Below are positions 33,971 to 56,342 of a stretch of 64,000 bases of DNA, one piece after another. Location of the stretch: positions 162,586 through 226,585 of the forward strand of contig NZ_LTAQ01000045.1 of NCBI RefSeq assembly GCF_001590835.1, given 5' to 3'. The stretch is from Bacillus gaemokensis (GTDB lineage: Bacteria; Bacillota; Bacilli; Bacillales; Bacillaceae_G). Each line of letters begins with the position of its first letter. Position 1 is the stretch's first letter. The translations under genes were made by a program, and so were the position numbers. The notes beneath the pieces were generated by a model. It did not search any database. It was not told the DNA's origin and saw nothing but the letters and a program-made list of their open reading frames with translations.

Positions 33971-35182
33971 TCAACTTAAACGCTCAATGCGTTTTGCACC
34001 GTATTGATAGACGAAGCCAATACTAAAGACTATGCTAACAGCAAATAAAATACACGTCATAATGATATCTTTTGTTGCGAAAGCAAATATGATTGTAAAT
34101 ACAATACTACCTGTGCAGAGAATTGCACGTAGCAGGGTAAGAAAATCTGTTTTCTTTTCTTCTATAGCTACTGGATATAGATCAAGCCAAAGTTTCAAAC
34201 GATGATGTTTCCAAAGGCTTAATAGCTGATAACCAATTAAGTATAAAAACACAATACTTACAATGAAACGACCATATAAAAATGGGATAAAGTAAAGAAT
34301 GACACCGCCAATAGCGAGTAAACGAATATACAAACCAAAATAATTACCCGATCTTAAGAACGTTCTTGTATATAAATATAAATACATCCGTTTTTCACCA
34401 ATGATTGTAAGAACAAAATCAAGCCACTTCCGGCGTGATACCCGTTCTTTTAATGCTGGTACATCAACAAACATATTCGCAATACGGTATAGGAACATCA
34501 TTTTCTTGCCTTCTTCTGCAATTAAATATTCCCAATTCAGCGGTTTTCCTTTAACCATTTGATGCATAGCTACGAGGTACATAACCATTACAAGGAGAAT
34601 AGCCCCTATGTAAATGACAGAAGCATGTCCGACAAGAATGTATACAAACAAAGCATTACATATAAAACGAATAAACCAATCTCCACGCTGCATTCTTTGA
34701 TCTGTTAAAAATGATTTTTCCCATGTCACAAATAAATTCCACGCTTTTACTAAAACGAGTGCAACGACAATCCATATGTAAGCCCCACCCGTCTGCTTCG
34801 TTTGCTGGAAATATAAAGGAGCAAGTGCAGCGGCCACAATCGCTATCACATAGAGCTGAATTGTAAATGTAAAGAAAAACGCCTTTGTAAAGTATGGTTT
34901 TAATCTTTCTTCGACCGGAAGCAAATATACAAGATCCGCTTCTTTTAATAACGTCTGAATGGAGCCTGTCGTTAAAGCAAGTCCAAGTAAAACTGCCATA
35001 ACGAGTGCGGTGGGAAACGAAGGTGTTAGCGTTTGTAACCATTGCTGATAATAGTAAGCCCCCGCACCAATGATAAAGACAAAAATAAATTTCAAATGAT
35101 CATTAAAAACATATTTACTATATGTACGAACTTCCTTTAAAAAATGCCTGAATCGTTCTTTCCATAACGCTTTACTATTCAT
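33971..35182 (-). CDS. ecsB: ABC transporter membrane protein EcsB
   Basis: The 403-residue protein has about eight hydrophobic helices arranged in pairs and the EcsB signature region FRHFLKEVRTYSKYVFNDHL near the start. It overlaps the ecsA gene by 8 bp. With EcsA it forms an exporter needed in B. subtilis for protein secretion, competence and RasP-dependent intramembrane cleavage; peptide fragments are the suggested substrates. Confidence 0.9.
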   Translation of the reverse strand: MNSKALWKERFRHFLKEVRTYSKYVFNDHLKFIFVFIIGAGAYYYQQWLQTLTPSFPTALVMAVLLGLALTTGSIQTLLKEADLVYLLPVEERLKPYFTKAFFFTFTIQLYVIAIVAAALAPLYFQQTKQTGGAYIWIVVALVLVKAWNLFVTWEKSFLTDQRMQRGDWFIRFICNALFVYILVGHASVIYIGAILLVMVMYLVAMHQMVKGKPLNWEYLIAEEGKKMMFLYRIANMFVDVPALKERVSRRKWLDFVLTIIGEKRMYLYLYTRTFLRSGNYFGLYIRLLAIGGVILYFIPFLYGRFIVSIVFLYLIGYQLLSLWKHHRLKLWLDLYPVAIEEKKTDFLTLLRAILCTGSIVFTIIFAFATKDIIMTCILFAVSIVFSIGFVYQYGAKRIERLS

Positions 35183-35918
35183 AATCTTCTTCCTTTGTTA
35201 ATGCAATATAAATATCGTCTAGTGTTGCACCAGGCATATTAAATTGCGACTGCAATTCAGATAATGTCCCTTTCGCCCTTACTTCACCTTGATGTAAAAT
35301 AATAAAAGAATCACAATAGCGCTCTGCTGTCGCTAAAATATGTGTACTCATTAAAATTCCCGCACCGCTCTTTTTCATTTGATCCATCATTTGTAGAAGT
35401 GATTGAATTGCTAATGGATCTAACCCCACAAAAGGTTCGTCAACAATATAAAGCGCTGGTTCAACAAGAAACGCACTCATAATCATGACCTTTTGTTTCA
35501 TCCCTTTTGAAAAATGGGCTGGGAACCATTTTAAGCGATTTTTCATTCGAAATTCTTGCAATAACTGCCCTACGCGTTCCTCATATTGCTTCTCATCTAC
35601 GCCATATGCCATCGCTGTTAACTTTAAATGTTCTTCTAATGTTAACTCATCGTATAATACAGGCGTTTCAGGAATAAAAGAAAAACTGGATCGATATGCC
35701 GTCATATCTTCGCGAATTGTTTTTCCGTTAATTGTTACACTGCCTTTTTTCGGTTCCATTAAGCCAATAATATGTTTAATCGTCGTACTCTTACCAGCTC
35801 CATTTAAGCCGATTAAACCAACAAGTTCACCTTTATTAACAGAAAATGAAACATTTTGTAATACAGGTCGCTTCGTATATCCCCCTGTAACATTGTCCAC
35901 ACGTAATAACTGTTCCAT
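35175..35918 (-). CDS. ecsA: ABC transporter ATP-binding protein EcsA
   Basis: The 247-residue ATPase has Walker A GLNGAGKSTT, the signature FSKGMKQKVMI, Walker B LYIVDEPFVGLDP and the switch histidine in MSTHIL. It is first in the ecsABC operon and divergent from hit, the order known in B. subtilis. It energises EcsB. Confidence 0.94.
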   Translation of the reverse strand: MEQLLRVDNVTGGYTKRPVLQNVSFSVNKGELVGLIGLNGAGKSTTIKHIIGLMEPKKGSVTINGKTIREDMTAYRSSFSFIPETPVLYDELTLEEHLKLTAMAYGVDEKQYEERVGQLLQEFRMKNRLKWFPAHFSKGMKQKVMIMSAFLVEPALYIVDEPFVGLDPLAIQSLLQMMDQMKKSGAGILMSTHILATAERYCDSFIILHQGEVRAKGTLSELQSQFNMPGATLDDIYIALTKEEDYE

Positions 35919-36149
35919 ATGACACCACTTTCTTCGTTATATTCATTCGCTTTTAAAAAGCGTATACTCCACTAGAATGTATATATCCATCTTACCAAAA
36001 ACAGAAGATACTACATAGTACCCTGATTTCTTCAAAAAAAATTTAATTTCTTTACATATCCTCTGCAAAACGGGACATCATAATTAGTGAAGAAGGAACA
36101 CATTGAAAAAGCAACCACCAAATTGATGAATACAACTTAGTGAAATCAT
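35919..36149. other. Intergenic region upstream of ecsA
   Basis: It carries the divergent ecsA promoter region and AT-rich DNA. A possible plus-strand start for the transcript that must end at the orphan terminator (36417-36444) is the TATACT at 35961-35966 or the CATAAT near 36082, but neither has a good -35 box. No open frame is credible. Confidence 0.4.
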
Positions 36150-36444
36150 CATGAAATGGGGTGTCCATCATGGACAAAGAAAATTTACACGAAACCAGAT
36201 AATTTGTTTCATTTTAGAAACGGGGTGTCTCGCGGAGAGTATATACTGTTTTATAAAATAAACAATTTCATTTCATAAAAGATTGCAATTTCATTTTATT
36301 GAAAATGGGGTGTCTACGGCAGAAACTTTAGCCGAATTACCATGCATTTCTTAAATAAATGAGGTGTCTGCGAAAGGTAAATTATAAAAATGCTTTTTCA
36401 ATCCCTCTTCAGAAAACAGGAAGCTGAGCCAGCTTCCTGTTTTT
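36150..36444 (+). ncRNA. Candidate small RNA with repeated GGGGTGTC hairpins
   Basis: The octamer GGGGTGTC (or GAGGTGTC) occurs at 36158, 36222, 36307 and 36361. In three cases it directly follows an inverted repeat (GTTTC-ATTTTA-GAAAC, CATTTT-ATTG-AAAATG, CATTT-N7-AAATG). A strong terminator at 36417-36444 closes the segment, while the hit promoter lies downstream of it and ecsA points away, so no annotated gene needs this terminator. I infer a plus-strand non-coding transcript of up to a few hundred bases; the promoter is not identified. Confidence 0.45.
36417..36444 (+). terminator. Orphan terminator upstream of hit
   Basis: A perfect 10-bp stem CAGGAAGCTG/CAGCTTCCTG with a 3-base loop is followed by TTTTT. 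It precedes the hit promoter. Its mirror A-run could also allow minus-strand function, but no minus-strand gene ends here. Confidence 0.9.
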
Positions 36445-36449
36445 CGTGT

Positions 36450-56189: not shown

Positions 56190-56342
56190 CGTTGCCAAAA
56201 CCTTATAAAACTCTATAAAGTTTGTTTTGCTTCCTGCTTCTACGTGTCCGATTTTGCCGGGGCTACTTTCGTTTGGTATAACACTCCACAGGCGTAAATT
56301 CGGATACAACGAATCCTACATATTAGCAGTAACGTTTTGATG
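56190..56342 (-). ncRNA. Possible TnpB guide RNA (omega RNA) region
   Basis: Downstream of tnpB there are 150 non-coding bases before yhaN that belong at least in part to the element. In IS200/IS605 and IS607 elements the guide RNA spans the 3' end of tnpB and the element end. The short inverted words GTTTTGCTTCCTGCTTC...GGTATAACACTCC are present but I did not fold it. Its exact ends are unknown. Confidence 0.3.

Follow-up and report, generated by a model that had tools for sequence, protein, structure and literature searches.

In Bacillus velezensis, the 294-nt small RNA Bvs196 is described as a sigma-F/G forespore transcript from between ecsA and hit (hinT), and its deletion gave spores that were less resistant to heat and UV and more resistant to formaldehyde (PMC9147052). 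Bvs196 bound spo0A and sspN-tlp RNA in vitro, with the pairing region placed at nt 74-131 (PMC9147052). In its introduction that paper gives S357 as the homolog in B. subtilis, whereas its discussion has "S547 (Bvs196 homolog)", and S547 is CsfG in PMC8216469; one of the two names is therefore a slip, and we favour S357 as the correct homolog by position and promoter. Further, ncr1670 is listed at hinT-ecsA and showed a 2.77-fold enrichment with Hfq of B. subtilis, the second lowest among the enrichments shown (PMC3574147), and "ncr1670; S357" is reported to change upon Hfq loss in an hfq mutant (PMC4410918). In B. licheniformis, a 323-nt independent RNA with hit as its neighbour has been reported (PMC3871023) and may be the same RNA. 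We found no other paper on S357/ncr1670 in the literature collection searched, and the available passages of the published accounts of S357, ncr1670, and Bvs196 hold no mention of a repeated box.

The predicted small RNA gene between ecsA and hit

In the window, which is the whole 64-kb stretch of B. gaemokensis DNA analyzed here, ecsA lies on the minus strand (35175-35918) and hit on the plus strand (start 36509), forming the divergent pair described in the earlier note. The features identified between the two genes are as follows.

36054..36082, plus strand: predicted sigma-G/F-type promoter, ACATA-17-CATCATA, 1 mismatch to the consensus
36089..36446, plus strand: predicted small RNA of ~358 nt, start taken from the promoter and end from the terminator, both approximate
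36088..36112, plus strand: 5' arm of the closing stem P1, pairs with 36392-36411
36154..36165, plus strand: box 1, AAATGGGGTGTC, pattern match
36218..36229, plus strand: box 2, AAACGGGGTGTC, pattern match
36303..36314, plus strand: box 3, AAATGGGGTGTC, pattern match
36357..36368, plus strand: box 4, AAATGAGGTGTC, match to the wider pattern
36392..36411, plus strand: 3' arm of the closing stem P1, GCTTTTTCAATCCCTCTTCA, pairs with 36088-36112
36412..36444, plus strand: intrinsic terminator of the small RNA, a 15-pair terminator-like stem

Promoters were scanned for with GHATR, 17-18 bases, and CATNMTA, which we take to be the sigma-G-type consensus, at no more than 1 mismatch and with a purine-rich start. 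The unit begins earlier than position 36150, where it had first been taken to start, with a predicted start near 36089 behind the sigma-G-like promoter, and the scan found no sigma-A-type site (at least 9 of 12) upstream of the array. The terminator noted earlier is present as the 15-pair stem; a hit promoter following it, also claimed earlier, found no confirmation, the single candidate from the scan being a 9-of-12 match overlapping the start of hit. The two arms of P1 pair at -23.1 kcal/mol in the window versus -11.4 kcal/mol when swapped, and 0/42 swapped partners were as good. An RNA gene at approximately 36089-36446 on the plus strand, separate from its neighbours and ending at the terminator, is strongly supported on sequence grounds. 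A weak terminator-like site was also observed on the minus strand at 36115-36143 (11 pairs, 3 of them G-C), directed at ecsA and antisense to the 5' part of the predicted RNA.

The four-copy array reported in the earlier note is real. The octamer GGGGTGTC has exactly 3 plus-strand sites (36158, 36222, and 36307) and none elsewhere in the window, versus 0.31 expected, with 3 or more reached in 1/100 shuffles, and the fourth copy of the array reads GAGGTGTC. The octamers are as first described, and they proved to be the middle of a box of 11-12 bases. The wider pattern AAAYGRGGTGTC, which was derived from the box copies themselves, has 4 matches in the window (36154, 36218, 36303, and 36357) versus 0.02 expected and 0/100 shuffles. 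The G-form (GGGG) was identified in 3/4 window boxes.

Like S357/ncr1670 and Bvs196, the window RNA lies between ecsA and hit/hinT and reads towards hit, and it resembles S357 and Bvs196 in its sigma-F/G-type promoter (by sequence only), its own terminator, and its similar length. The box was also identified in the B. subtilis-group loci L050, L052, L054, L057, L059, L060, L063, and L079, and the closing stem is likewise common to the B. subtilis-group RNA, the comparison being with these loci and not with the letters of Bvs196. The promoter and terminator rule applied to L050 (Bacillus inaquosorum) gives an RNA of ~293 nt with three boxes, whereas the window RNA is predicted to be longer (~358 nt versus 294 nt for Bvs196) and has four boxes, mostly in the GGGG form. 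By position, promoter type, and length, the window gene is very probably the counterpart of S357/ncr1670 and Bvs196, and as a member of a known forespore sRNA it is therefore not new in kind. The earlier proposal of a separate plus-strand small RNA is borne out by the conserved promoter, closing stem, boxes, and terminator and by the published transcripts in B. subtilis and B. velezensis; the word "unannotated" remains apt for the missing Rfam match and not for the relatives, in which the RNA is known. An unannotated interval is in this way linked to a published spore-resistance sRNA.

The Rfam search proposed in the earlier note returned nothing at the gathering score at the locus and just weak, chance-level matches with E up to 5, and no match was obtained with Rfam in 16 related loci. 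A search of the plasmid collection also gave no match. The sole Rfam match at gathering score within the 64-kb window was a RAGATH-18 RNA (RF03064) on the minus strand at 56231-56292, with 74.2 bits versus a cut-off of 44.9.

Conservation of the boxes and the closing stem in Bacillaceae

Relatives were obtained by a Hit-protein scan of genome contigs, retaining the best 80 of at least 548 loci (top segment identity 77%), and 74/80 loci yielded the ecsA-hit intergenic (ecsA was not found in 5, and L069 was not delimited). The final set comprised 84 intergenics, namely these 74, 9 from genome searches, and the window, with 6 duplicates removed. For the B. cereus group, in which the earlier note had proposed an alignment, genome searches (397 genomes and another 19) brought up no close match. 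A loose box pattern had at least 1 plus-strand match in the 1000 bases upstream of hit in 61/80 loci, where the match in L076 is not counted as a box, and matched the minus strand in 2 loci, L033 and L071.

With the strict pattern, a box-bearing unit was identified between ecsA and hit in 68/84 Bacillaceae intergenics, with three boxes in 33, two in 24, four in 8, five in 2, and one in 1. The 16 loci without boxes were excluded from the box, promoter, and stem counts and used only as a promoter control. The intergenics of L061, L064, and L070 are boxless and share a different stretch, GAAGAAGG..CCCCCCTTCTTC plus a terminator-like end, which may mark a different small RNA at this position.

Over the 68 loci, AAATGAGGTGT with at most 1 mismatch anywhere was found 189 times on the plus strand, 0 times on the minus strand, and 0 times in shuffles, and with two mismatches 204, 6, and 7 times, respectively. 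Among the 115 unique one-mismatch copies, 92 carry A and 23 carry G at the variable base R, and the other 10 box positions show only 17 changes in total, 8 of them at the last base. Mismatches were allowed anywhere in this recount because the first pattern had partly fixed the core letters, an earlier tally of 136 unique copies having used a pattern that fixed most of them; outside the box pattern, twelve bases further along, an A and a G are each conserved in 120/136 of those copies.

A sigma-G-type promoter was identified upstream of the first box in 61/68 box-bearing loci, versus 0.3% of shuffled stretches and 1/16 control loci without boxes. The promoter script picked another site in L086 and in the window, both of which were set by hand for the stem and openness analyses, and its picks are doubtful in L023, L027, and L035. 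The script located a terminator at the corresponding position in 60/68 box-bearing loci and none in the remaining 8/68. Across 43 species, P1 averages -24.7 kcal/mol with its own arms versus -17.0 kcal/mol with arms exchanged between species, and own arms beat the mean of the swapped ones in 42/43 species, in some barely, with L075 as the exception. RNAalifold retains P1, with changes on both sides of the stem, in the window plus 4 relatives, for which its overall covariation term is unfavourable (+1), and in 6 Anoxybacillus/Geobacillus-type loci.

The conserved stem is this long-range one and not the small stem-loops that the earlier note had placed before the boxes. Visual inspection allows such hairpins to be drawn upstream of boxes 2 and 3 (for instance GTTTC..GAAAC upstream of box 2), where they consume the AAA of the box itself, and they are not a feature of the family. 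A small hairpin after the box was rejected as a conserved element, pairing at or only slightly above the level of shuffled columns in 135 unique boxes: the paired count versus the shuffled mean is 128 versus 125.2 for pair 8-18, 117 versus 117.5 for 9-17, 104 versus 102.0 for 10-16, and 15 versus 15.3 for 11-15. The predicted unpaired fraction is 0.29 for the box core versus 0.37 for the rest of the RNA (43 species), the core being more open than the rest in only 13/43 species, and no conserved intramolecular partner of the core was found, the partners of 127 boxes scattering over four kinds of place. Of the earlier hairpin-plus-box reading, the linear conservation of the boxes stands and the hairpins find little support; since the latter hardly covary and the partners of the core vary by species, the box is kept as a linear sequence, most simply for an outside partner.

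Candidate partners of the boxes

Transcription and its forespore timing in B. gaemokensis, the binding partner, and the effect are what we infer from these comparisons. The RNA would be transcribed from the sigma-F/sigma-G promoter late in sporulation and end at the terminator before hit, and both of its ends would pair into the closing stem, enclosing a string of AAAYGRGGUGUY boxes. Each box would be a Shine-Dalgarno-like decoy in which GRGGUG pairs with CACCUC at the 16S rRNA 3' end; with as a rule no start codon after the box, the RNA would hold 30S subunits, untranslated, in the late forespore, or alternatively would itself be shielded by the bound subunits. Action of the boxes chiefly via the anti-Shine-Dalgarno, as a multi-site decoy, is the leading but tentative reading, which we hold to be possible and short of probable, and the counterpart identity and this mechanism taken jointly are plausible without being likely.

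An A/G base amid kept G, G, G, U, and G fits a partner that reads CACCUC, as in the anti-Shine-Dalgarno at the 16S 3' end. We calculated pairing energies of -8.7 to -12.0 kcal/mol between the anti-Shine-Dalgarno and 48 boxes from 14 genomes, the A and G forms alike, and shuffled boxes matched the score in at most 9% of trials for 45/48 boxes, the three exceptions lying at 18%, 19%, and 26%. A start codon 3-10 nt past GRGGTG was identified in only 7/102 unique stretches, window box 1 among them, versus 42.6% of background positions. Comparison across the family shows this depletion of start codons, as it does the gene unit, the promoter type, the closing stem, and the conservation of the boxes. 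Outside the array, 12 genomes hold 71 exact copies of the complement RCACCTCATTT. In 20/71 of them an ORF of 60 aa or more begins 1-10 nt downstream on the box strand, versus 8.9% of random positions; these 20 sites likely serve as Shine-Dalgarno sequences. The start-codon depletion, the fit of both box forms to the anti-Shine-Dalgarno, and the sites outside the array argue for a decoy over any particular sRNA or mRNA partner. Mini-ORFs starting from an AUG inside the box were ruled out because window box 2 and 2 further unique copies read ACG. The idea of a bait, raised in the earlier note, is compatible with these data; its alternative, that the boxes cover the ribosome sites of mRNAs, fits badly because the box is itself ribosome-site-like and its expected partners would be the anti-Shine-Dalgarno or C-rich RNAs.

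Some properties of the box speak against a ribosome decoy. The base preceding GRGGUG is U in 114/115 copies although a U (or C) is unpaired with the anti-Shine-Dalgarno there, the AAA before GRGGUG and the AAAG after it are also conserved and are not needed by the model, and a perfect Shine-Dalgarno would bind at -19.5 kcal/mol versus -9.5 to -10.3 kcal/mol for the boxes. Window box 1, moreover, does have a start codon behind it, and the nt 74-131 through which Bvs196 reportedly pairs with its targets (PMC9147052) would, by the layout of L050, fall between boxes 1 and 2. Given the nearly fixed U, the remaining conserved bases, and a core no more open than the rest of the RNA, a protein partner therefore stays a serious rival, albeit in our estimate a rather unlikely one. 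The boxes would then be sites of an RNA-binding protein, Hfq or some forespore protein, which the RNA titrates in a CsrB-like manner or by which it is guarded. Consistent with such a site are a linear run of 11 nearly invariant bases, repeated two to five times, in which anti-Shine-Dalgarno pairing leaves some fixed bases unexplained, and a core whose intramolecular partners are not conserved, whereas the tolerated A/G change is what an RNA partner with U would permit. We know of no protein that reads the box sequence. Hfq is the sole protein candidate with any evidence, namely the 2.77-fold enrichment of ncr1670, which is also the second lowest shown (PMC3574147), and the reported change of S357 in the hfq mutant (PMC4410918).

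A third reading makes the RNA a sponge, in the manner of RosA, for C-rich sRNAs, for example RoxS, FsrA, or CsfG; we consider this reading quite improbable. With RoxS sequences from the same 14 relative genomes as the 48 boxes, the 19 G-form boxes fit RoxS at -11.6 to -12.9 kcal/mol, and 3/4 window boxes are of this form, whereas the 29 A-form boxes reach only -4.2 to -8.0 kcal/mol, no better than shuffles. CsfG is unsupported as a partner of the A-form boxes, which it does not fit better than shuffles in ten genomes; for the G-form boxes its fit is weakly better than shuffles. The RosA promoter is moreover reported to be sigma-A and CcpA-controlled (PMC8216469, PMC8464778), not sigma-G.

A second box, AAGGGGATGGTYnnnTTGAAC, was identified in 35/84 loci, such as L022, L055, L090, and L086, the window not included, with 58 copies, 46 of them unique, and the letters RGGGATGGT preset by the pattern used to find it. 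Most copies are complementary to RoxS over 9-10 bases. AGGGGATGG lies inside 43/46 unique second boxes, and its complement CCATCCCCTT occurs in 11/14 RoxS sequences, those of G003, G102, and G210 differing; in G210 the second boxes do not follow the changed RoxS site. Nine copies from six genomes score -15.4 to -20.2 kcal/mol against RoxS versus -10.2 to -13.1 kcal/mol against the anti-Shine-Dalgarno. RosA, a sponge of RoxS, is reported to pair through ten bases in a row with a RoxS region of this kind (PMC8464778, PMC8216469). The second box (AAGGGGATGGT) pairs with RoxS at the region that RosA reportedly uses (PMC8464778), so in the genera that carry it the RNA may also bind RoxS. The fuller picture, in which a conserved forespore RNA captures 30S subunits through two to five nearly start-less boxes and, in some genera, RoxS through the second box, is on balance unlikely as a whole.

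Pairing of the boxes with specific mRNAs is very doubtful. It can draw on the in vitro binding of spo0A and sspN-tlp RNA by Bvs196 (PMC9147052). A conserved mRNA target with the exact box complement was rejected on 71 sites in 12 genomes, as a shared gene context was found only for G072/G135 (three pairs) and G405/G408 (one pair, located 53 nt upstream of an ORF whose product begins MEYIVETH), apart from a single protein match at 30%. Chance, or a mobile repeat, can be dismissed as the origin of the array, with 0.02 matches expected in the window, 189 copies versus 0 in shuffles over 68 loci, and the pattern AAATGRGGTGTYT occurring only singly outside the array (18 genomes), which ties the array to one locus.

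Significance and comparison with known systems

The repeated boxes, the slight variation they show between genera, and the second box are the features that merit specialist follow-up. The sRNA gains a testable anatomy that consists of a repeated box with hardly any variation, a closing stem, and, in many genera, a second box. Several ribosome decoys, or a protein bait, in one RNA would bear on the silencing of forespore translation and its later restoration. If the fuller picture were true, a single RNA would titrate the ribosome as well as the C-rich regulator RoxS.

Like the window RNA, CsfG is a forespore small RNA, of sigma-F/G type (PMC8216469, PMC9147052). It differs in sitting between ylbG and ylbH (PMC3574147) and in being CU-rich, whereas the window RNA is G-rich and has no match to Rfam RF00516 (ylbH). 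The CsfG family (RF00516) scored above cut-off in 21/21 genomes searched (loci L105-L125).

RosA and RsaI of S. aureus are, like the window RNA, stand-alone RNAs with G-rich regions, and theirs pair with C-rich sRNAs (PMC8464778, PMC8216469). Unlike RosA, the window RNA has a sigma-G-type promoter and not a sigma-A/CcpA one, and the main box in its A form misfits RoxS in the relatives compared. Protein sponges of the CsrB/RsmY type carry repeated GGA in hairpin loops, whereas the window box reads GRGGUG and its hairpin hardly covaries. The STAB-SD of Bacillus thuringiensis cry mRNA is a sequence like a Shine-Dalgarno that would bind ribosomes without being translated. The window boxes would resemble it in this respect, and differ in that STAB-SD is one site at an mRNA 5' end, whereas the window holds a string of boxes in a predicted non-coding RNA.
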